In this document: positions 44,412 through 53,442 of the stretch, piece by piece
How the letters are laid out: each line of letters begins with the position of its first letter
How positions within the stretch are numbered: position 1 is the first letter of the stretch
NCBI GenBank assembly: GCA_945898275.1
Contig: CAMDHZ010000015.1
Coordinates: 1 to 64,000 of the forward strand
From: Chitinophaga pinensis
GTDB taxonomy: Bacteria; Bacteroidota; Bacteroidia; UKL13-3
Direction of reading: 5' to 3'
DNA: 64,000 bases
Notes under the pieces: generated by a model
What the model was told of the DNA's origin: nothing
Databases searched by the model: none
The model's input: the letters and a program-made list of their open reading frames with translations, nothing else
Made by a program: the position numbers and the translations under genes

Positions 44412-45407
44412 TTACGCCGCAAAATTACTCAAAGATACAAATGGCGTTCCTCTGTTAACTGTTGCAAATATTCTTGCCACAATTTTATTTCGGATTATGT
44501 TCAAAACAACCATTTTAGGTTTCCCTTCTTCAACTCTTTTTGAATAGTAATTTTTAAGTTCTTTATCATGTTGAATCGCACTTATAGCCGACATCGAGAG
44601 TAAGCTCTTCATTTTGCGGTCACTTATCGGATGTGTTTTTTCTCTTCCATGGATGCTTGTCCCTGATTGATAAGGAAATGGAACCAGCCCACAATAAGAG
44701 GAAAATTGACGCCAACTAGCAAAACGGCTATAGTTGTGAGTATGTAGCAACATTTGAATAGCCAGAATTGGACCAACCCCTTTTACACTCTTTGATAATT
44801 TGTAGTTTCTATTCAATTGTTGATCCAATTTGATTAAAGCATCCATTGCCTTTTCAATCCTATTTATTTGAAACTCCAAATGGCTTAATGTGTCATCCAA
44901 CGCCATAATGGATGCATCTGGCTGTCCTTTAATAGCTATTTGCTCCATTCCTTTTCGTAAGTTCTTTAGCGCTGTTTGCTGCTTTACAAATTGCTCTCTT
45001 AAACTCATCATTCTTTGCAATTCAATGATATTTTTAGCTGGTGGGGTTGAAGGAACTAATTCACTTCTTCTGAGCCAGGCATAATAGGCAATCTCTTTTG
45101 AGTCAGCCTTGTCGCTTTTACCCCTTTTTAGGCCCATTGAGCGCTTTATCTCCATTGGGTTAATAGAACAGTAATCTAATCCATTTTCCTTCAGAAAATA
45201 GCTTAAAATTATGCAATACCATCCTGTGTGTTCAAAGCAAAACAATACCTCATTAAGGTTTACTTGTTTTGATTTTAACCATTTTAAAATTTTAAAATAA
45301 CCTCTTCGATTATTTTCAAATTGAGCGTGATCTTTTAATGTGTGAATGAAAACGTCCAATGTCAGTTTCGACACATCAATACCAACTGTTTCTTTTACAT
45401 TTTTCAT
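44412..45407 (-). CDS. IS110-family DEDD transposase (bridge-RNA-guided recombinase type)
   Basis: 331 residues. The RuvC-like N-terminal domain has G-I-D-V-S-K (Asp about 10), F-E-H-T-G-W and K-S-D-K-A-D-S-K-E-I-A (Asp pair about 110); the C-terminal Transposase_20 domain has G-V-G-P-I-L-A and S-S-Y-C-G-L-V-P with the candidate catalytic Ser, followed by Q-S-G. Length fits the family. The ATG at 45407 gives the family's M-K-N-V-K-E-T-V-G-I-D start; the longer frame upstream runs into the predicted bridge-RNA region. All key residues are intact, so it may be active. Confidence 0.9.
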   Translation of the reverse strand: MKNVKETVGIDVSKLTLDVFIHTLKDHAQFENNRRGYFKILKWLKSKQVNLNEVLFCFEHTGWYCIILSYFLKENGLDYCSINPMEIKRSMGLKRGKSDKADSKEIAYYAWLRRSELVPSTPPAKNIIELQRMMSLREQFVKQQTALKNLRKGMEQIAIKGQPDASIMALDDTLSHLEFQINRIEKAMDALIKLDQQLNRNYKLSKSVKGVGPILAIQMLLHTHNYSRFASWRQFSSYCGLVPFPYQSGTSIHGREKTHPISDRKMKSLLSMSAISAIQHDKELKNYYSKRVEEGKPKMVVLNIIRNKIVARIFATVNRGTPFVSLSNFAA

Positions 45408-45419
45408 ATATTCGTGTTT

Positions 45420-45600
45420 AGGAAAAAAAAATAAACTTGCTGTGCTATCGCCTTTAACGGGCCACAATGCCCAACATTCCAATTAGTACGTGCAAGTCCG
45501 AAAGTGTGAAACAGGACTAATGCAGCTAATAGGACCATAATCCTACAAAACGTTTTAGGTCACCCGTTTCTCCTTCGGAATTTATAACTTTTTATCCCAA
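45420..45600 (-). ncRNA. Candidate bridge RNA in the upstream end of the IS110 element
   Basis: The non-coding region upstream of the transposase holds a series of hairpins as seen in IS110 bridge RNAs: GGGC/GCCC at 45459-45472, AGTCC/GGACT at 45495-45518 (with outer TTAGT/ACTAA), TAGGA/TCCTA at 45530-45545, and a C-rich hairpin near 45563-45578. The family rule (guide RNA encoded next to the recombinase) is established; that this stretch is the RNA, and its ends, are inferred. Confidence 0.5.
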
Positions 45601-45630: not shown

Positions 45631-45644
45631 GTTAGCAGTAAGTG
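45631..45644 (+). repeat. Cassette start box of the HNH module
   Basis: GTTAGCAGTAAGTG is the inverted complement (13 of 14) of the box just past the same gene at 46874-46887. The pair brackets the nuclease gene like the two halves of an attC core site. Confidence 0.55.
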
Positions 45645-45647
45645 TAA

Positions 45648-46853
45648 ATGACGACAACAACACCACATATAACCAAAGACACTTTTGTAGAAATTCTGCA
45701 AGACAAAGACCTTGTGCAATCTGACGACCTGCTCATTTTTCAAACTTTATATTCACTCGACAAACAAGAGGCATCAGCGACAGACCTTGCAAGAATTATC
45801 GGCTGGTCAGACAAAAACGGAGTTGTTGGAAGAATTGTAGGACTTGGAAAACGTATTCTAAAAAAATACGACATCAAACAAACAGAACGTGAAGACGGAA
45901 CAAAAAAGCTTTGGGACTTCTTTTTTACAGGCTATTATAAAGAGGCTTTTTTCATTTACCAACTCAAACCAGAACTCAAAGACGCATTAGAAGAATGTGG
46001 TTTAACTGACAACGTAAAACCTATTTCAATTCAACGGGCTTACTTGTTCGCTTGGAACCCCAACAACTGGCATCAGTGGACAGACCCAAAGAACGTCCCA
46101 TATATTGAGGACAACATTGAAGAATTAAAAAACACAGGTAAAGTTACTTTGATATGGAGTTGTCGCAGCCACAAAAGTATCCGACCAGGTGACAGAGCAT
46201 TTTTAGTGAGAGTTGGTTCTACTCCGAGAGGAATTATGGCATCAGGCAAAGTAGTATCAGAACCTTTTTTATCACCGCATTGGAGTGGCGAGGACAAAGA
46301 TGTTCCAAGAGTTATGATTGAGTTTGATGTTTTGCTTAATCCTGACAAAGAAGCCATCCTCACATTGGACAATTTTGACAATGGAAATTTATCTAAACAA
46401 ACATGGACACCGCAATCATCAGGAATTTCTATCAAACCTGAACTCGTTGACGAACTTGAAGAAGAATGGTTTGAGTTTCTAAGAACTCAAAAGGTTCGTT
46501 ATAATCCTTTTTCCGAAACGACTGACACTACAAAAACATTTGTTGAAGGTTCAGCGACACAAGTAACGCAGACACGTTACGAAAGAAATATTCATGCAAG
46601 ACGAGAATGTTTAAAACATTACGGTTATTCCTGTATGGTTTGCGGATTCAACTTTGAGAAAATATACGGGAACATCGGCTATCAGTTTATTCACGTTCAT
46701 CATTTGACACAAGTAGCGACAATCAAACAAGAGTATAATGTAAATCCAATTGCTGACTTACGACCTGTTTGTCCAAACTGCCATGCTATGTTGCACAAGG
46801 ACAATCCACCATTGACAATTGACGAACTAAAAGACAGAATAAAAAATGGGTAA
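45648..46853 (+). CDS. EVE/PUA-like plus HNH endonuclease, probable modification-dependent restriction enzyme
   Basis: 401 residues. N-terminal winged-helix-like region (about 1-110); a central EVE/PUA-like domain (about 125-275: R-A-Y-L-F-A-W-N-P-N-N-W and W-S-C-R-S-H-K-S-I-R-P-G-D-R-A-F-L-V-R-V-G); and a C-terminal McrA-like HNH nuclease (about 320-395) with zinc pairs C-M-V-C and C-P-N-C and F-I-H-V-H-H-L. EVE-like domains bind modified cytosines, and EVE-HNH fusions are known modification-dependent nucleases, so a type IV restriction role against modified phage DNA is likely but inferred. It is the first cassette of the array. Confidence 0.8.
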   Translation: MTTTTPHITKDTFVEILQDKDLVQSDDLLIFQTLYSLDKQEASATDLARIIGWSDKNGVVGRIVGLGKRILKKYDIKQTEREDGTKKLWDFFFTGYYKEAFFIYQLKPELKDALEECGLTDNVKPISIQRAYLFAWNPNNWHQWTDPKNVPYIEDNIEELKNTGKVTLIWSCRSHKSIRPGDRAFLVRVGSTPRGIMASGKVVSEPFLSPHWSGEDKDVPRVMIEFDVLLNPDKEAILTLDNFDNGNLSKQTWTPQSSGISIKPELVDELEEEWFEFLRTQKVRYNPFSETTDTTKTFVEGSATQVTQTRYERNIHARRECLKHYGYSCMVCGFNFEKIYGNIGYQFIHVHHLTQVATIKQEYNVNPIADLRPVCPNCHAMLHKDNPPLTIDELKDRIKNG

Positions 46854-46873
46854 CGTTGGACACCAGCCAAAAA

Positions 46874-47002
46874 CACCTACTGCTAACACGGGCTTAGCAA
46901 AAGTGGCGGTTCAGTACTCCGCAGACAGTTTTGTGGTTAATCAAAATTTGGTTCTCCGCATCAACATTTGTGGTGAAAATCGCCACCTTCGCCAAGCCCG
47001 AA
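46874..47002 (+). repeat. attC-like palindrome after the HNH gene
   Basis: Begins CACCTACTGCTAAC. Arms at 46889-46908 and 46981-47000 match at 17 of 20 positions; all three mismatches are of the kind that leaves G-T wobble pairs when the bottom strand folds. The interior shares CAGACAGTTTTGT and ATCAACATT blocks with the site at 51253. The right boundary is cut by an IS1182-like remnant. Confidence 0.55.
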
Positions 47003-47408
47003 AACGTCAGGTTGTGAAAAAACTAAGTTTTGGTTGAAAATTGGATGGATTTGATGGTCTAAGGCTTCCAATTTTTAATTTTATCCATTAATTTTTCAAT
47101 GCCTATAATGTTTATACATCTCTTCATGTTATAAACTGTCATGATTAACGCAAACTCACCGTTTACTTTCTTTAATCCCGTTAAGTTGGTATGGTTGTAT
47201 CCCCACTTGCTTTTAATGGTGCTGAATACCTTGCTCTAACAGCATCCTCCAAACAACTAAACGCCATTTGAGCACGATTACTTTCTGAAATGTAATTCAT
47301 ATCCGTTTTATTAAACCAAATTTAACCTCGCAATATCTTGCCTAATCACACTTCTTTTAATACTTTTACACTACAGACTGTGGAGAGGTTTTTTCATACG
47401 CTGACGTT
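47003..47408 (-). mobile_element. Internally deleted IS1182-like element, copy 1
   Basis: 406 bases bounded by inverted ends (AACGTCAG..TGTGAAAAAAC and the complement of its partner AACGTCAG..TATGAAAAAAC). On the minus strand it encodes the first ~21 residues of a transposase (M-N-Y-I-S-E-S-N-R-A-Q) and, after a deletion, its end (W-G-Y-N-H-T-N-L-T-G-L-K-K-V-N-G-E, then T-V-Y-N-M-K-R), typical of IS1182-type enzymes. It cannot move by itself. ACGT occurs at both ends and may be the target duplication. Confidence 0.6.
47337..47368 (+). promoter_or_regulatory. Outward promoter-like sequence in the IS1182-like remnant
   Basis: CTTG, 20 bases, TACTTTTA: close to a -33/-7 pair, pointing at the vapBC-like genes. 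The same arrangement occurs in the other two remnants (50530-50561 and 51585-51616). Confidence 0.4.
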
Positions 47409-47463
47409 GTGCAAGACCTTCCCAAACCAACGTAATTCGACAATTTTTCATAAATTTGCTTTT

Positions 47464-47688
47464 ATGCAAGTACAAGTAGACATAGAATTTGACCAATTAC
47501 TTAAAATTGTGAAGACCCTGCCTGCAGGACAATTGAAACAATTGAAAACGGAAATCGAAAAAGAGGCAAAAAGCACAAAGTCAGCTGACTTGGAAACGTT
47601 GCTTTTGAACGGACCGACTGCAACCAAAAAGCAATTGAATACAATCGTTAAGAACAGAAAAGCTTTTAACCTATGGCGGACAAAATAA
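47464..47688 (+). CDS. Antitoxin of a VapBC-like pair
   Basis: 74 residues, mostly helical and charged, M-Q-V-Q-V-D-I-E-F-D-Q-L-L-K-I-V-K, with a basic end F-N-L-W-R-T-K. Its place and the 16-base overlap with the PIN toxin identify it as the antitoxin; the sequence itself is only weakly like known families. The ATG at 47464 is chosen because upstream codons come from the IS remnant. Confidence 0.65.
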   Translation: MQVQVDIEFDQLLKIVKTLPAGQLKQLKTEIEKEAKSTKSADLETLLLNGPTATKKQLNTIVKNRKAFNLWRTK

Positions 47689-48062
47689 TTTTGGTTGACA
47701 CTTCTATTCTTATTGACTATTATCGTAAGACTGAAAAAGAAAAATCTATTTGGGTAAATCTAGTGCGCCAAGGTTATGCATTTGCTGTTTCTGTTGTGAC
47801 TAAATATGAAATTTATGCAGGTGCAACCCCCAACCAATTAATTTTTTGGGACCGTGTCTTCAAAGCTATTAAGGTCATATCGCTTGATGAACTTTCAATA
47901 GACACCGCCGTAGTTATTAATAGCGCTCTGAAAAGAAAACGAAAACAAATTGATTTGGCTGACCTTTTTATTGCAGCAACTGCAGTTGCATATAATCTCC
48001 CTTTAGTGACACTCAACAGAAAGCATTTTGACAGAATAGATACATTACAACTAATGGATTAA
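47673..48062 (+). CDS. vapC: VapC-like PIN-domain ribonuclease toxin
   Basis: 129 residues. PIN acidic residues: Asp9 (V-D-T-S), Glu46 (K-Y-E-I-Y-A-G), Asp94 and Asp97 (D-L-A-D-L-F-I-A-A-T-A). Expected to cleave RNA (often initiator tRNA or rRNA) when freed from its antitoxin. Length and motif spacing fit VapC; the active site is intact. Confidence 0.85.
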   Translation: MADKIILVDTSILIDYYRKTEKEKSIWVNLVRQGYAFAVSVVTKYEIYAGATPNQLIFWDRVFKAIKVISLDELSIDTAVVINSALKRKRKQIDLADLFIAATAVAYNLPLVTLNRKHFDRIDTLQLMD

Positions 48063-48065
48063 GGC

Positions 48066-48172
48066 GAACGCACAAAATGCGTTTGTCTGCAATAAGGGCA
48101 TTGGAATAAAAGAGAAAAGAAAAGGCGAAAAAGTGCCAACCATTTCCTTATTATGCCACGTGCCAAAACGAT
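48066..48172 (+). repeat. attC-like palindrome after vapC
   Basis: GCACAA directly after the gene mirrors TTGTGC at the module start (47407-47412). The arms around 48077-48104 and 48136-48172 pair imperfectly (AATAAGG..ATTGG against CCATTTCCTTATT). The left arm resembles the one at 49515 (TGCAATAAGGGCA / GGCAATAAGGGCA). Confidence 0.45.
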
Positions 48173-48188
48173 ATAGCGGCTATATTTT

Positions 48189-48854
48189 ATGACAATTACC
48201 ATTGATAAAAGACAATATTTTGAAATAATCACATCATCAATTTGCGGACTTTTATTTATTTCTTTATTCATTTTCGAAATATTTGACTTTAACGAATATT
48301 CAAAGTTAATTGCTTGCTTAGCATTTAGTTTAATTGTGATCCTTTTAATCTACTATGCCTTTTCTGCTTTGTCGACGCCTTTTACTGTGGCCATAGGGTT
48401 ATCTTCTGTTGTTTTCATTGGGGCAATATTTAAGATTCTACATTTGAGAGGATATTCTTTGATAATTATGTTAGGATCATTGTTTGAAGTTTTGGCTATT
48501 CCAATTTTAGGGGTTTTAATTCTTAAAAAGTATTTGAAACAATCTAATAAAAACAAACTACAATTACTCCTATTCAGAATGTTGACCATATATCTTATAG
48601 TGAAATTATTCCTATTTTCAGTACTTAAATTCTATTCTATCAACCTTGACTTTATATTCCTTTTACCTGTAATTTTTTTGCTATCATTTTTTACTTTGCA
48701 AGACGACTTTCAAGGTTATCATATATCTGTAAAAAATGGAATTAAGGTATTACTATTATTGCATTTGACATTGTTCAGCCTTAAAATGATTGCTCGTACT
48801 TCAGAAAATTACAACCGCCAACATCACTTACCCAAAATTGGCGCATTGTACTAA
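48189..48854 (+). CDS. Membrane protein with a GldL-like segment
   Basis: 221 residues, about six hydrophobic segments. The segment G-A-I-F-K-I-L-H-L-R-G-Y-S-L-I-I-M-L-G-S (about 77-96) resembles the transmembrane hairpin of the gliding/T9SS motor protein GldL, where an F-K-I-x-H motif precedes the second helix. It lacks GldL's cytoplasmic part. Could be a free-standing GldL_N-like protein; function unknown. It sits alone in its module. Confidence 0.5.
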   Translation: MTITIDKRQYFEIITSSICGLLFISLFIFEIFDFNEYSKLIACLAFSLIVILLIYYAFSALSTPFTVAIGLSSVVFIGAIFKILHLRGYSLIIMLGSLFEVLAIPILGVLILKKYLKQSNKNKLQLLLFRMLTIYLIVKLFLFSVLKFYSINLDFIFLLPVIFLLSFFTLQDDFQGYHISVKNGIKVLLLLHLTLFSLKMIARTSENYNRQHHLPKIGALY

Positions 48855-48945
48855 GTTGAAATGCAGTGCATCTTTGATAATAAACTGCTAAATTGCATTT
48901 ACTAAATTTCTTAGTTGAAAGCCTTGGTTAGCTGTGAAATTTAAG
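48855..48945 (+). repeat. Palindromic spacer after the GldL-like gene
   Basis: CTAAG..AAATGCA (about 48853-48868) pairs with TGCATTT..CTTAG (about 48894-48914). GGTTAGCTGTG at 48935-48945 may be the start box of the next module. Confidence 0.35.
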
Positions 48946-49001
48946 GGGAAATAGTACCTCGGGTAATTATGAGTTATGTGCTAATATAATGACGACAAAA
49001 C

Positions 49002-49505
49002 ATGCATAATTTTCTGTTTATTTTAGCAATCTTGTTGGCAACAATTTCTTTTGGACAAAAGCCTTCTGAAAAAGATTTACCAAGACTTTATAACATGACA
49101 ATTAGAGAATATTTTTCTGACTCATCTATCCATCAAGACCAAAAGAGGTATGGTAATATTATTATTCGGACTGACTTGGATTCCACCTTACTAAAAAGAA
49201 AAGTCGGGCAAAACCATTTTAGATTTTTTGCACATCAGACACCAAGACAAGCCTTATGCCAAGGGGACAAGGCGGACAGCGGCAGATACATTTACAATAT
49301 TTATCGCAAAGAAGAACAAACCGACACTATTGAAGTCATAATTGGTGGAGATATTGTTCAATGGCGAGACGACATTTATTCTGACTTTTTACTTCAAACT
49401 CAAGCCTTAATGGACGTTCGAGTAGCTAAGTTCATTTATAACAAAGTTACAAAGGATTGGACATTTATTAAAGAGCCAGAACGAAGGTTACTCTTACAAA
49501 AATAA
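49002..49505 (+). CDS. Secreted protein of unknown function
   Basis: 167 residues with a signal peptide (about 1-18, ending S-F-G-Q). The mature part is polar with one cysteine (A-L-C-Q-G-D), a central F-R-F-F-A-H-Q and a beta-rich I-E-V-I-I-G-G-D-I-V-Q-W. No family recognised. Single gene of its module. Confidence 0.55.
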   Translation: MHNFLFILAILLATISFGQKPSEKDLPRLYNMTIREYFSDSSIHQDQKRYGNIIIRTDLDSTLLKRKVGQNHFRFFAHQTPRQALCQGDKADSGRYIYNIYRKEEQTDTIEVIIGGDIVQWRDDIYSDFLLQTQALMDVRVAKFIYNKVTKDWTFIKEPERRLLLQK

Positions 49506-49507
49506 CA

Positions 49508-49633
49508 GCCACTAACAGGCATTTGCAGGCAATAAGGGCAATGAAATAAAAGGGAAAAAAGTTTATTTTTGAATTAAGGTGATGAGGCGAATAGGTGCTT
49601 ACAATTCTCTTACTTCGCCAAACGCCAAAACCA
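49508..49633 (+). repeat. attC-like palindrome after the secreted-protein gene
   Basis: Begins CACTAAC (49510-49516). Left arm 49517-49545 (AGGCATTTGCAGGC, AATAAGGGCAATGAA) pairs imperfectly with 49601-49626 (ACAATTCTCTTACTTCGCC, AAACGCC). Total about 125 bases, uninterrupted by an IS remnant, so the best site for structural tests. Confidence 0.5.
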
Positions 49634-49651
49634 TTGTGCCCAATTTATAAG

Positions 49652-50324
49652 ATGAAATTTCAGTACATTATAATATTTATCATTTCTTCTTGTATAAATC
49701 AGGGAAGGGACTCCAATAATCAACAAATTCAAATTGCCGAATCAATAAGTAATAATAAAGTAAAGAGTGAAATTAACTTTACAGATGGGAAAGGGTTAAA
49801 ACAAGGATTTTGGAAAATAAATGACTCTGTAAATAATGAAATTAGAGAAGTATATTACAAAGACAATCAGCTAGACAGCATTTCAAAAAAAATTCCATTT
49901 CTCCCAAAAGGACAAATTATTATCATTAGCTTTTTTTCAAAATGGAAAGATACAATGGTCAGTTATGCCTGAATATTTTAACAACACGCATCCTAAATAT
50001 ACTAAAGCATTTGCTTTGAAAGGTATTATTATTTACGAGGATACTGTATACGTAAAAGTGCCATATGAGAGTGGAAAAATTTGGTTTGAGGGCACATATT
50101 TACGGGTATATAATTACAATACGGGTTTACCTTCAGGTGTCCTGAAAAGTTACTTTAAGAATGGGGAAATCAATACTATAGAAAATTGGAAATTGTATAA
50201 GAAACCTTATAACAATAATAAAGTTGGAGGAGGTTCTTTATTAAACGGAAATTTCCAAATATTTGACTCTATAGGAAATAAAGTATTTGATACAAACTTT
50301 AATATGGCACCGCTTATACTGTAA
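49652..50324 (+). pseudogene. Lipoprotein gene with a frameshift in a T7 run
   Basis: The ATG at 49652 opens a lipoprotein (I-I-S-S-C, Cys about 12). The frame stops at 49972, while the continuation is open from 49965 to 50324 in the +1 frame. At 49931-49937 lies a run of seven T. With six T the frames join smoothly as S-F-F-Q-N-G-K-I-Q-W-S-V-M-P-E-Y, giving about 223 residues with MORN/YwqK-like features (Y-F-K-N-G-E-I-N-T-I). It may be a true pseudogene, a phase-variable gene or a base-calling error. Confidence 0.65.
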
Positions 50325-50325
50325 A

Positions 50326-50426
50326 ATAAACTGGGCATAACAGCTAGCTTTTCGTGGTGACCGCAGGCCAAGCCATGAATTGAAAATCATCGAATAAACT
50401 CCAGTTGATTGGAACCTGATTGTTTT
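50326..50426 (+). repeat. attC-like site after the frameshifted gene, right half replaced
   Basis: The end box at 50326-50341 (ending GGGCATAAC) mirrors the module start at 49633-49648 at 13 of 16 positions. A 26-base stretch at 50355-50380 (TGGTGACCGCAGGCCAAGCC, ATGAAT) recurs at 52451-52476 with two differences. The right arm is missing where an IS1182-like remnant begins. Confidence 0.45.
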
Positions 50427-50601
50427 GCTTTACCGCATCCTCCAAACAACTAAACTCCATTTGAGCACGATTACTTCCTGAAATGTAATTCATATCCGTT
50501 TTGTTAAAGCAAATTTAACCTCGCAAAACCTTGATTAATCACACTTCTTTTAATACTTTTACACTACAGACTGTGGAGAGGTTTTTTCACACTCTGACGT
50601 T
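50427..50601 (-). mobile_element. IS1182-like remnant, copy 3 (transposase start only)
   Basis: Shares about 165 bases with the other two copies, including the inverted end CTGACGTT and the outward promoter-like boxes. On the minus strand it keeps slightly more of the transposase N-terminus (F-S-C-L-E-D-A-V-K-Q-N-N-Q-V). The frame then runs on into the neighbouring spacer. Confidence 0.55.
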
Positions 50602-50614
50602 ATGCCCAATATTA
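50599..50614 (+). repeat. Cassette start box of the 50724 module
   Basis: GTTATGCCCAATATTA is the inverted complement, at 15 of 16 positions, of 51246-51261 just behind the same gene. Confidence 0.55.
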
Positions 50615-50723
50615 CAAAGACAGTAAAGATAAATTAAGTATTAACCTTCAGCTTTTATATAAATGACATTATGTCAGACAGATTGAAGTGGAATAAAAAT
50701 TGGTTATATTTCATAAAAAGAAA

Positions 50724-51248
50724 ATGAAAAAGAGCCAATTAACAGTAACTAGTTCCAGTATTTTGTCATATGCTGGGATTAAAACGCTTGAAAATAAGAT
50801 TGATCCTTATACAAGAATGTCATTAGGACTTCTTGCAACAGTAGGTTTATCACTATCAGAAAATCAAACAACCAGAAATATTGGATTAGGGCTCGGTATA
50901 GCATCTTTGCTACAGCTATTAGACATAAAAAAAGGAGGAAAAATAACGCGGAATGATTCAAATATTAAATTTTATATTTTAGACGAGAATCAAGGCGTGA
51001 CAATATTAGAGCCTGGTCAAACTCCAAATAGTTCCATCGATGGAATAACATTCAAAGGATTAAATGGAGTTTTTAAAGTGTCTGATGGTGTATACGTCGA
51101 ATTAGGAACGGACAATAGTATCAATTATTCGTTTGGATTTGGGAAGCTAATAAATCAGAATTTAAGAAGTGGGGGCTATAAGTCAAAACAATGGGTTGAC
51201 CAGCAAACCGATCTTCGTTGGAAAGAATTATACAATAAATCAATTTAA
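50724..51248 (+). CDS. Protein of unknown function in a cassette
   Basis: 174 residues. Residues 1-65 contain two weakly hydrophobic glycine-rich stretches (S-L-G-L-L-A-T-V-G-L-S-L and G-L-G-L-G-I-A-S-L-L-Q-L-L); residues 75-150 are beta-rich (F-Y-I-L-D-E-N-Q-G-V-T-I-L, then G-L-N-G-V-F-K-V-S-D-G-V-Y-V). No family recognised. Start at the ATG at 50724; an in-frame TTG eight codons earlier is possible. Confidence 0.5.
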   Translation: MKKSQLTVTSSSILSYAGIKTLENKIDPYTRMSLGLLATVGLSLSENQTTRNIGLGLGIASLLQLLDIKKGGKITRNDSNIKFYILDENQGVTILEPGQTPNSSIDGITFKGLNGVFKVSDGVYVELGTDNSINYSFGFGKLINQNLRSGGYKSKQWVDQQTDLRWKELYNKSI

Positions 51249-51376
51249 TACTGGGCATAACAGCACATTTGCAATAGGCGGGGTTTCGTGCTCGGCAGAC
51301 AGTTTTGTAGTAGCCAATAGTTTTGTGCTCCGTATCAACATTGGTGGTGAAATTCCCGCCCATCGCAAATCTGCAA
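51246..51376 (+). repeat. attC-like palindrome after the 50724 gene
   Basis: Begins TAATACTGGGCATAAC. Arms at 51263-51282 and 51355-51374 match at 17 of 20 positions; two of the three mismatches (the same two positions as in the site after the HNH gene) leave G-T wobble pairs on the bottom strand. The IS1182-like remnant starts two bases past the right arm, exactly as in the HNH site. Confidence 0.55.
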
Positions 51377-51654
51377 AACGTCAGGTTGTGAAAAAACTAA
51401 GTTTTGGTTGAAAATTGGATGGATTTGATGGTCTAAGGCTTCCAATTTTTAAGTTTCTCCATTAATTTTTCAATGCCTATAATGTTTATTCATCCTCCAA
51501 ACAACTAAACTCCATTTGAGCACGATTACTTCCTGAAATGTGATTCATATCTGTTTTGTTAAAGCAAATTTAACCTCGCAAAACCTTGATTAATCACACT
51601 TCTTTTAATACTTTTAGACTATATAGTGTGGAGAGGTTTTTTCATACGCTGACG
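51377..51654 (-). mobile_element. Internally deleted IS1182-like element, copy 2
   Basis: 278 bases; same inverted ends as copy 1 but a larger internal deletion that joins transposase residue ~20 almost directly to its last ~25 residues. Nearly identical in sequence to copy 1 over the shared parts, so both derive from one source or were spread as non-autonomous units. Confidence 0.6.
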
Positions 51655-51700
51655 CTAGCGGTCAGGCTATGACGATCATGAGACCGACAGGAAAGAACAC

Positions 51701-51736
51701 AAAAGTTTCATTGTAACGAAACTTTTACTATCTTTG
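51701..51736 (+). promoter_or_regulatory. Promoter and operator of the HigBA-like operon
   Basis: AAAAGTTTC, eight bases, GAAACTTTT (51701-51726) is a perfect nine-base inverted repeat. The -7 box TATCTTTG follows at 51729-51736, and TTTC at 51706-51709 can serve as -33 with 19-base spacing. An antitoxin bound to the repeat would block RNA polymerase, the usual autoregulation of such pairs. Confidence 0.6.
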
Positions 51737-51756
51737 CTTTATGAATAATTTATGTA

Positions 51757-52113
51757 GTGGACAAACATTTTGAAATTTTATTTTTAGACGAGGCATTTGA
51801 ATTTCTAAGTGGTTTAGAAAGGAAGCATTACGAAAAAATACTTTATAATATTCGTAAATCTCAAGTAGAAATAGACCCCGAACTTTTTAAAAAACTATCA
51901 GACGAAATTTGGGAATTTAGAACTTTGTATCAAGGACTGCAATATCGACTACTTGCCTTTTGGGACAAGACTTCAACAACAGATACCTTGGTAGTTTCGA
52001 CACATGGATTTATTAAAAAAAGAAGCAAAGTTCCAGACAATGAAATTCAAAAAGCGGTTAGCATTAGGACAAAATACTTTGCAGACAAACAAGTTAAAAA
52101 CAAGAAAAAATGA
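51757..52113 (+). CDS. HigB/RelE-like (phage Gp49-type) toxin
   Basis: 118 residues with the RelE-superfamily pattern: F-L-D-E-A-F-E-F-L-S-G-L, then L-S-D-E-I-W-E-F-R-T-L-Y-Q-G-L-Q-Y-R-L-L-A-F, and V-V-S-T-H-G-F-I-K-K. Expected to be a ribosome-dependent mRNA interferase. Starts with GTG at 51757; the nearest ATG runs into a stop. It overlaps its antitoxin by four bases (ATGA), toxin first as in higBA. Confidence 0.82.
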   Translation: MDKHFEILFLDEAFEFLSGLERKHYEKILYNIRKSQVEIDPELFKKLSDEIWEFRTLYQGLQYRLLAFWDKTSTTDTLVVSTHGFIKKRSKVPDNEIQKAVSIRTKYFADKQVKNKKK

Positions 52114-52424
52114 AAGTATATACATTAGACCAAGTTCAAGACAAACTAATTGGTAAAATTGGGACACCTGAACGAGAAGTATTTGAATACGAACTTCAAA
52201 TGGACTTAATAGGTAAAGCCATTAAACAAACACGACAAGAAAGAAACTTGACGCAAGAAGAATTAGGGAAACTAATTGGTGTTCAAAAAGCACAAATTTC
52301 ACGACTTGAAAACAATGCAAGTAATGTAACTATGGACACTTTACTGAGAGTTTTTGCCGCACTAAAAGCAAAAGTTAAACTCCACGTAGAACTTCCGAAT
52401 TTAAACATCAATATTGGACAATAA
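52110..52424 (+). CDS. HigA-like HTH antitoxin
   Basis: 104 residues. Central XRE-type helix-turn-helix (about 35-90): G-K-A-I-K-Q-T-R-Q-E-R-N-L-T-Q-E-E-L-G, then Q-I-S-R-L-E-N-N-A-S-N-V. It should neutralise the upstream toxin and bind the inverted repeat at 51701-51726. Confidence 0.85.
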   Translation: MKVYTLDQVQDKLIGKIGTPEREVFEYELQMDLIGKAIKQTRQERNLTQEELGKLIGVQKAQISRLENNASNVTMDTLLRVFAALKAKVKLHVELPNLNINIGQ

Positions 52425-52639
52425 TACGTCACATAACAGCAAGAGTTTCTTGGTGGCTGCAGGCCAAGCCATGAATCTTTGGTTGTCCGAAAATGCTACC
52501 TTATACATAGTTCATCCCTCTTTTGTTGAAGTAAATTTATCCCTTAAGTTACCTGCTTTTCTCTGATTAAATTAAAACATTTACATGGAGAATGGTGTAA
52601 AGGTTTTAGGGAAGTTGGTTAAGTTTAGCGTAATGTAAT
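52425..52639 (+). repeat. attC-like left half after the HigBA pair, then plain intergenic DNA
   Basis: ACGTCACATAAC (52426-52437) is followed by a 26-base stretch at 52451-52476 nearly identical to 50355-50380. No clear right arm follows. A weak counterpart of the end box (GCTATGACG) lies ahead of the operon at 51668-51676. The remaining ~160 bases show nothing recognisable. Confidence 0.35.
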
Positions 52640-53170: not shown

Positions 53171-53442
53171 AAATCCATTTAAACAAACAGAACGCTCCTA
53201 CGGAGCTTTGTTTAAATACAAATCATTTCCTACAAACAAGATGCTCCTATGGAGCTTTTAAAGCTACAATTAACAATATGCCCCATAGGGTTTTACTGTT
53301 TGTTGAACCGAATCAACCACAATTAAAAAAGCTCCGTAGGAGCGGCATGTTAATAATTACCGATAACAGGTAGCAAGAAAGCCTCTCCAAATAAGTGTAA
53401 ATTGCTCCCTATTAGTATGCCTCATGCACAAGAATTTATCAA
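53171..53442. repeat. Cluster of GCTCCTAYGGAGC palindromes
   Basis: 272 bases without a gene. GCTCCTACGGAGC at 53194-53206 (extended by AAACAAA/TTTGTTT outer arms), GCTCCTATGGAGC at 53243-53255, GCTCCGTAGGAGC at 53331-53343, and a weaker GCCCCATAGGG at 53280-53290. These short palindromes resemble REP-type elements. Confidence 0.65.

Follow-up and report, generated by a model that had tools for sequence, protein, structure and literature searches.

Gene modules in a Chitinophaga pinensis contig are very probably integron-type cassettes, with relatives beside an IntI-like recombinase that lacks the IntI insertion

We analyzed a 64,000-nucleotide stretch of Chitinophaga pinensis DNA (contig CAMDHZ010000015.1, or C15 among the contigs of the source genome; the whole stretch is called the window), in which a row of short gene modules shows a box at the start of a module and a complementary box at its end. 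The modules are very probably integron-type cassettes. Their boxes would be the R' and R'' halves of the cassette's own attC site, joined in the circular form, and the related sequences point to an IntI-like tyrosine recombinase without the IntI insertion (patch) as the enzyme. Integron-type cassettes are a known kind; what appears to be new in these sequences is a rule at position 11 of the boxes, a private pairing arm of about 15 bp, and the patchless integrase.

The initial annotation had described three modules in which the start box is complementary to the module's own end box, and all three pairings were reproduced exactly: 13 of 14 positions in the HNH module (45631-45644 with 46874-46887), 15 of 16 in the module of open reading frame (ORF) 50724 (50599-50614 with 51246-51261), and 13 of 16 in a frameshifted lipoprotein module (49633-49648 with 50326-50341). 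These values were far above chance; among 400,000 random pairs of a GTT start and an AAC end from the window, at least 13 of 16 positions matched in 151 and 15 of 16 in 3. Position 11 was the single mismatch common to all three pairs, with A in the start box and C in the end box (G in its reverse complement). The boxes had also been said to differ between modules, which holds for the HNH module compared to the other two, whereas the modules at 49633 and 50599 are mostly alike in the first ten bases and differ mainly at positions 12-15. By hand count, the start at 50599 matched the end at 50341 in 12 of 16 positions and its own end in 15 of 16. A convincing own partner was found for three of the seven module starts tried in the window array.

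Related loci were obtained by scanning named genomes with A1, an alignment of six patchless integrases. The scan gave 80 loci, including isolates of Flavobacterium, Algoriphagus, Winogradskyella, Seonamhaeicola, Algibacter, and Rufibacter. The search for own pairs required nine exact matches plus an attC hairpin at one flank or both, and 85 start/end pairs were recovered in 25 of 37 loci (seven contigs of the source genome and 18 other genomes), a fraction that is not a rate, the 37 loci (13 source-genome contigs and 24 other genomes) having been hand-chosen after inspection of the A1 loci. One shuffle of each locus yielded none. Pairing extended over about 15 bp, and the unselected positions 12, 13, and 14 paired in 74, 91, and 72% of the 85 pairs, compared to 4% at position 11. 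The start box carried A at position 11 in 83 of the 85; the combination (start base/reverse complement of the end base) was A/G in 61 and A/C in 17, and by eye most of the latter become A/G with a one-base gap. Own pairing amounted to 9.55 of 12 positions in the 80 cassettes left after overlap removal, versus 4.34 at 47 linear junctions.

The same pattern was seen when cassettes were detected by their hairpins only. Thirty-one cassettes were found in this way, and the 22 kept by a filter on positions 4-7 all had the start A at position 11, with match fractions of 0.95, 0.86, and 0.86 at positions 8, 9, and 13 versus 0.05 at position 11. On contig C44 (locus L036), five consecutive cassettes found hairpin-first, with 118-129 nt between boxes, each had the start paired with its own end; at the sites measured, the hairpins between boxes spanned 52-184 nt. 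An earlier test on hairpin-defined cassettes, diluted by missed and misplaced sites and replaced by the box-based search, gave mean matches of 9.6 (own), 8.2 (neighbour), and 7.9 (other), with at least 12 matches in 17 of 48, 2 of 48, and 6 of 208. A looser box search (111 versus 28.5 in shuffled DNA) had a high background and served as a guide only.

Twenty held-out loci, picked by hand and not at random from 147 profile-positive genomes for spread and contig room, gave 41 A/G pairs in 13 loci (shuffled mean 0.6), and the reverse G/A type was absent from these 20. One of them, G008, belongs to the window's own genus and showed four A/G cassettes in a chain. Another 29 loci had at most about 1.5 kb of DNA downstream, and 10 of these showed an A/G first cassette; the short-locus set of 30 contained two genes seen earlier (G022, G027) and one without an ORF. 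In 10 of 20 sampled loci (L250, L251, L253, L254, L255, L257, L261, L262, L264, and L265), the contig ended less than 4 kb behind the integrase, so cassette arrays are probably under-assembled and under-counted.

Homologous modules elsewhere were expected by the initial annotation to have their borders at such boxes, and this was true in the sole homologue available, an HNH module of genome G051 (locus L218; 52% identity over residues 130-399), which lies between the start GTTAGCAGTAATTTTA and the end ACTACTGCTAAC with hairpins on both flanks by eye. The private box GTTAGCAGTA is common to this module and the window HNH cassette, and positions 12-15 read TTTT on both sides in G051 and GTGT on both sides in the window; in this single comparison, the matched change is what a constrained stem would predict. 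The HNH gene was matched in 2 of 147 relatives, one being the source genome, and in short parts in four plasmid records. A cut between G and TT of the start box, also raised earlier, fits the sequence and integron practice, but it is indistinguishable from a cut before the G because this G is constant.

Private inverted ends of about 15 bp per unit are also what small transposon-like units would show if each were moved independently by a transposase and the boxes were module-specific terminal inverted repeats, and elements resembling insertion sequences (IS) do occur in the same stretch. We consider this very unlikely, since the units border directly on an attC-type hairpin and on their successor, chain one way, keep a constant GTT/AAC edge, and have an IntI-like gene ahead of them, and since the 61 forms of the nine-base end found among the 85 pairs could hardly be read by one transposase. 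The circular cassette proposed in the initial annotation gained support from the attC-type hairpins, the head-to-tail chaining, and the IntI-like integrase ahead of related arrays.

As a cassette, each module would begin with a start box GTTRNNNNNNANNNN and close with the reverse complement of that box (NNNNCNNNNNNYAAC, the end box), after which a hairpin follows. Within an array, the right half of every attC would be supplied by the next cassette, while in a free circle the cassette's own end box, hairpin, and own start box would meet and form one long hairpin; attC has been said to 'belong' to the circular form (PMC2674596). Judging by the anatomy of the loci, the patchless IntI-like recombinase, encoded just upstream with its stop codon facing attI, would insert circles at attI and free them, and capture would proceed through the folded bottom strand without the IntI insertion.

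The letters of the boxes differ in what they allow on the two strands. The start A and end C at position 11 form a mismatch on the top strand and a G·T pair on the bottom strand, and wobbles in the box stem were bottom-only in 76 cases versus top-only in 5. A clear hairpin was present in 71 of the 80 cassettes, and for these the circle site was reconstructed computationally. It was more stable on the bottom strand in 67 of the 71 (mean -31.0 vs -26.5 kcal/mol), as was the inner hairpin alone in 56, and the bottom-strand circle site surpassed the linear junction in all 71, with a mean gain of 8.1 kcal/mol. The bottom folds contained 300 G·T pairs and the top folds 108. On the bottom strand, a worked example from L036 folded into a hairpin with hardly a break, carrying a bulge of four bases next to the crossover; the strand gap was smaller in L101 (-30.6 vs -28.9 kcal/mol). 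The choice of strand is probably written in these letters, as the C/A at position 11 and the A/C mismatches in the hairpin become G·T only on the bottom strand, which is the strand of attC used by integron integrases (PMC8946536).

This polarity also bears on the idea that the complementarity is a feature of the mRNA or of transcription, with transcript ends pairing or hairpins acting as terminators. Long intergenic hairpins can be terminators and the boxes lie at likely transcript edges, but the bottom strand is the template strand of the module genes, so the transcript pairs worse (76 vs 5 wobbles); the borders, moreover, match cassette edges around unrelated genes, and an Rfam scan found no match up to E 1 over the stretch and 5S rRNA only in two arrays. 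An origin in transcription is thus extremely improbable.

As a control for the cassette reading, 21 loci with a patch-bearing IntI were analyzed. They held few arrays, and L157 and L161 gave no pairs and were excluded. Stretches of Kovacikia and of class 1 plasmids were likewise left out of the control. Forty pairs were found in 12 of the 21 loci, compared to two in one shuffle; they were contiguous over about 9-12 bp and faded after position 11-12. Own pairing was 9.03 and neighbour pairing 4.78 of 12, with strands not yet oriented. After orientation by ORF and exclusion of L211, the 33 cassettes showed 21 bottom versus 7 top wobbles and an A at position 11 in 8. Because the classical control pairs too, but without the A rule, integrons in general show own pairing that exceeds the 7-bp core and a milder preference for the bottom strand, and the position-11 rule with renewed pairing behind it is special to the patchless type. 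Core sites have been given as 7 bp (PMC3053210, PMC2674596), and the classical own pairing found here is longer.

The integrases beside the arrays are IntI-like and lack the roughly 41-residue IntI insertion (I2, or patch), which Messier and Roy in 2001 reportedly called necessary, going by their title. The distance from the catalytic Arg motif to HxxRH was invariably 127 residues in the 51 classical ORFs, which represent about 41 distinct genes, and 85-90 residues in the 17 measured of the 18 other genomes with pairs. Ahead of the Arg motif, the cassette-linked integrases had a median of 223 residues, compared to 133 in classical IntI, the roughly 90 extra residues being an N-terminal domain. 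TIGR02249 was the best NCBIfam match of the L077 integrase (217.9 bits) and the second of L079 (209.6 bits), in two stretches each and below the cut-off of 265; L079 passed the XerA-type NF040815 (223.8 vs a cut-off of 220).

These results, together with the control, also bear on whether the arrays could be ordinary classical cassettes served by a patch-bearing IntI in a lineage that is not special. The own pairing of about 9-12 bp and the milder wobble bias of the control would agree with that, as would the title of NF040815, which includes 'integron integrase'. The control pairs, however, show no break with renewed pairing and rarely the A at position 11 (8/33 vs 83/85), the spacing of the catalytic motifs differs (127 vs 85-90), and both example integrases miss the TIGR02249 cut-off, all of which makes the ordinary kind very unlikely.

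In a tree of 92 rows, 18 classical IntI formed one clade (100/100) and five Xer rows their own group (100/100), while the patchless rows, with or without detected arrays, fell outside the IntI clade and were spread over several groups. For this tree, six patchless loci were dropped, classical rows were thinned to 18, and a few rows were labelled cassette-linked by the start box alone. Because of the spread of the patchless rows, the tree is undecided on a single gain of the insertion from such ancestors. The structure predicted for the L101 integrase (predicted local distance difference test 82.8, predicted template modelling score 0.61) had IntI4 (2a3v) as its best Foldseek match (E 6.1e-16). 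Archaeal Xer, XerA, and IntI4 came out best in a comparison with VIA, the values being those for 4a8e (Z 24.2, rmsd 8.5, 256 aligned), 5hxy_A (Z 20.8, rmsd 14.3, 251 aligned), and IntI4 2a3v_C (Z 20.4, rmsd 3.8, 255 aligned). The N-terminal domain had weak matches to PF07443 in 2 of 21 members (best 0.0013) and to DUF5710 in 4 of 21 (best 0.00064). Neither Foldseek nor VIA gave a significant fold match for it: the best Foldseek match was the HARP domain of SMARCAL1 (4o66, E 0.27), which is a lead only, and the best VIA match was another fold (5jb3, Z 4.6, rmsd 3.6, 64 aligned). By eye, the integrases of L103, L112, and L126 are longer forms, seemingly with more than one copy of this domain.

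The integrase and the arrays are joined by an attI-like stretch. In several relatives, the integrase has an open frame (e.g., 358-437 amino acids in G022, G060, and G067), and a GTT cassette start comes roughly 5-200 bases after its stop codon. An attI beside the integrase gene, with the first cassette running from GTT, was present at other loci and not in the window; likewise, tandem cassettes of one orientation separated by imperfect palindromes, from R'' (YAAC) to R' (GTTR), were present in related loci, and the sites of the window are interrupted. In the source genome, one end of contigs C88 and C105 encodes a tyrosine recombinase C-terminus (TIGR02249 positions 286-315), which is followed by a conserved stretch and next by a cassette start. 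Seven copies of this attI stretch were found in the source genome with at most one mismatch, and none in a reversed control; the pattern was absent from the 40 relatives searched, and attI stretches differ elsewhere. A decayed integrase C-terminus was observed at ten dispersed places (12 matches; C35, C41, C46, C51, C80, C83, C88, C92, C105, and C106), with a copy of the conserved attI and then a cassette behind most of them. By eye, C80, C88, and C105 seem to have an N-terminal piece fused to the C-terminal end, with the catalytic middle lost.

The A1 profile matched at E 1e-70 in 147 of 295 sampled genomes of the window's class, Bacteroidia, although a profile match alone does not prove an array, which 13 of 20 checked loci had. 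Patch-bearing IntI passed the cut-off in 105 of 395 genomes drawn from the phylum; among the 108 with any match at 1e-50, only G178 was marked as the window's class, the class share of the draw not being given. In its accessible text, the IntegronFinder 2.0 paper reports earlier In0 elements and one complete integron (Salinibacter ruber) in Bacteroidetes proper (PMC9024848); a further source names Bacteroidota among integron phyla, without detail in the part available (PMC8618304), and an early integron survey kept only insertion-bearing integrases (PMC2426708). No report of cassette arrays run by a patchless integrase was recognised in a literature search that left preprints and most subscription papers outside it.

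Several observations weigh against the modules being cassettes of a patchless integron. In the window, no convincing own partner was found for the starts at 47406, 48169, 48973, and 51654 (four of the seven tried), and profile searches found no integrase match on its contig. The source genome had no intact integrase, only the decayed ends, with no match of the A1 profile at 1e-70 and none of TIGR02249 over its cut-off. The requirement of nine matches partly selects the gap between own and neighbour pairing, the less biased hairpin-first set is small, and the 37 loci were a choice by hand. Seven of the 20 held-out loci had no A/G pair, four of them with less than 900 bases of contig, and only 7 of a further 57 A1 loci, mostly left out earlier, had one (L085, L093, L095, L108, and L144, plus L121 and L122 from a list of 33 that was mainly non-Bacteroidota). 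With 2 of 33 in that list, most patchless integrases outside Bacteroidota are without such cassettes in the DNA examined. In genome G150, three A/G cassettes (locus L211, 1464-5884) end roughly 4 kb ahead of a classical IntI that is degenerate and disturbed at its C-terminus, and the 11 kb on the left of these cassettes yielded no patchless integrase; the pairing dialect and the integrase are therefore not strictly tied. Finally, the pairing, borders, strand bias, chains, integrase linkage, and missing insertion were read from DNA and protein sequences, and it is from these that we infer circle formation, bottom-strand use, and recombination by the integrase.

A/G first cassettes were also noticed behind patchless integrases in metagenome-assembled genomes labelled Spirochaetota and Firmicutes (L121, 11097-11857; L120, 11131-11854), which may reflect transfer, mislabelled bins, or a wider range.

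The features of the window array are given in Table 1. The module genes, all on the + strand, comprise the HNH gene, a VapBC-like pair, a membrane protein, two small unknowns, the frameshifted lipoprotein, a HigBA-like pair, and a DUF6933 protein. In a Pfam scan of nine module proteins (lipoprotein pieces excluded), HNH, PIN, Gp49, HTH_3, and DUF6933 passed the cut-offs, GldL_N stayed below its cut-off, and three proteins had no Pfam match. The inter-module hairpins of the window measure about 118 nt, and the fold of 51246-51384 was more stable on the bottom strand (-22.2 vs -16.4 kcal/mol).

Table 1. Features of the cassette array and its left neighbour in the window
Coordinates	Strand	Feature	Remark
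44412..45482	-	Transposase ORF	Immediately left of first cassette
45631..45646	+	Start box, HNH cassette (R' half plus extension)	GTTAGCAGTAAGTGTA
45648..46853	+	HNH-domain protein gene (PF01844)	Cassette 1
46872..46887	+	End box (R'' half), HNH cassette	Pairs with 45631-45646
46888..47005	+	attC inner hairpin, cassette 1	IS-like insert cuts at AAAAC|G; by eye
47006..47405	.	IS-like remnant, inverted ends GTCAG..CTGAC (repeat families D1/D2)	Separates attC hairpin from next start box
47406..48168	+	VapBC-like module plus hairpin, start GTTGTGCAAGACC	PIN protein 47673-48062; right edge approximate; own end box not recognisable
48189..48854	+	Membrane-protein gene	Decayed module
48973..49516	+	Module with start GTTATGTGCTAATATA	A at position 11; candidate end box ~49501-49516 weakly complementary
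49517..49632	+	attC-like hairpin ahead of lipoprotein module	By eye
49633..50341	+	Frameshifted lipoprotein cassette, start box ATTGTGCCCAATTTAT	ATT replaces GTT; end box 50326-50341
50432..50598	.	Right-hand fragment of 47006-type IS-like element	Terminal CTGAC at 50598
50599..51261	+	Cassette with ORF 50724-51248	Start box 50599-50614, end box 51246-51261 (15/16)
51262..51379	+	attC inner hairpin downstream of ORF 50724 cassette	
51380..51653	.	IS-like remnant	Ends as 47006-47405, equivalent place in attC
51654..52439	+	HigBA-like toxin-antitoxin module (PF05973, PF01381), start GCTAGCGGTCAGG	GCT replaces GTT

The array in the window is a relic because it has no integrase, several of its boxes are mutated, and IS-like elements lie within its attC sites; the system there is dead or silent. 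Since every site has its right half mutated or cut off by an insert, a search with an attC finder gave no complete site in the window. A cluster of attC sites lacking integron-integrases (CALIN) is defined by two or more attC sites with less than 4 kb between them and no integrase nearby (PMC9668308). The window hairpins at 46888 and 51262 have 78-82% identity to each other's attC or to attC of intact arrays (78% between 46894-47026 and the site at 51246-51400; 82% between the latter and sites in intact arrays on contigs C44 and C62 of the source genome). A single IS-like element with inverted ends is present in copies at three junctions of the window, and at two of these it sits directly after the attC AAAAC. 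Elements with GTCAG..CTGAC ends are presumably of the IS1182 type.

By eye, at least two kinds of IS-like element (GTCAG/GTCAA..CTGAC) recur precisely where AAC|GTT marks the edge of an attC site, next to the crossover: at 47006-47405, 51380-51653, and 50432-50598 in the window, up to 211 and from 6603 in L037, from about 3719 in L039, from about 1178 in L040, and up to 2170 in L066. They look as if they target cassette sites. An attC-like end, AAACC|GTTAGC, adjoins the transposase ORF at 44412-45482, which we take to be of the IS110 type; some IS110 relatives target attC. Further right, the intergenic region 53180-53370 contains by eye several short repeats near CTCCTACGGAGC / GGAGCTTT on both strands.

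Whether Bacteroidia own an integron lineage of their own, largely unrecognised, is to our mind evenly balanced; going by these sequences, it would recombine folded single strands without the IntI insertion, choose the strand by G·T/A·C polarity instead of extrahelical bases read by I2, and possibly use a HARP-like N-terminal domain to read the hairpin. If this is true, capture would be favoured over loss, because the private arm is complete only in the circle, where the site is about 8 kcal/mol more stable than in the array; the insertion would be no precondition of cassette recombination, and the enzymes might resemble the Xer-to-IntI intermediate imagined in PMC4792948. Should a large part of the Bacteroidia have arrays run by patchless integrases, a widespread system of gene capture has gone unnoticed; in the window, the cargo includes an HNH protein and two pairs resembling toxin-antitoxin systems, next to unknown genes. 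Cassette borders can be located simply, even without an integrase, by the private 15-bp arm together with the start-A/end-C rule, and the arrays make testable what single-stranded cassette recombination requires besides a Xer-like enzyme. The activity of the integrase is the decisive question because the insertion, besides being called necessary in the 2001 title, has been called essential for integron function (PMC8138268).

Compared to IntI (TIGR02249; IntI4, 2A3V), the patchless integrases have in common the SPLD-type tail, two TIGR02249 stretches, and the best Foldseek match, but they are without the insertion in the catalytic domain, have a longer N-terminus, and score below the IntI cut-off. 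With Xer and XerA they share the same core fold without the insertion, whereas the Xer rows are separate in the tree and, to our knowledge, Xer is not linked to cassette arrays. An 'integron-like' subgroup of tyrosine recombinases contains patchless members that, in the accessible text of its description, are not linked to cassette arrays (PMC8138268). With the integron cassettes and CALIN described in PMC9024848, the modules share the head-to-tail chain in one orientation, attC hairpins between GTTR and YAAC, and an attI ending at the GTT core, and they differ in the private pairing of about 15 bp, the start A and end C at position 11, and the other type of integrase.

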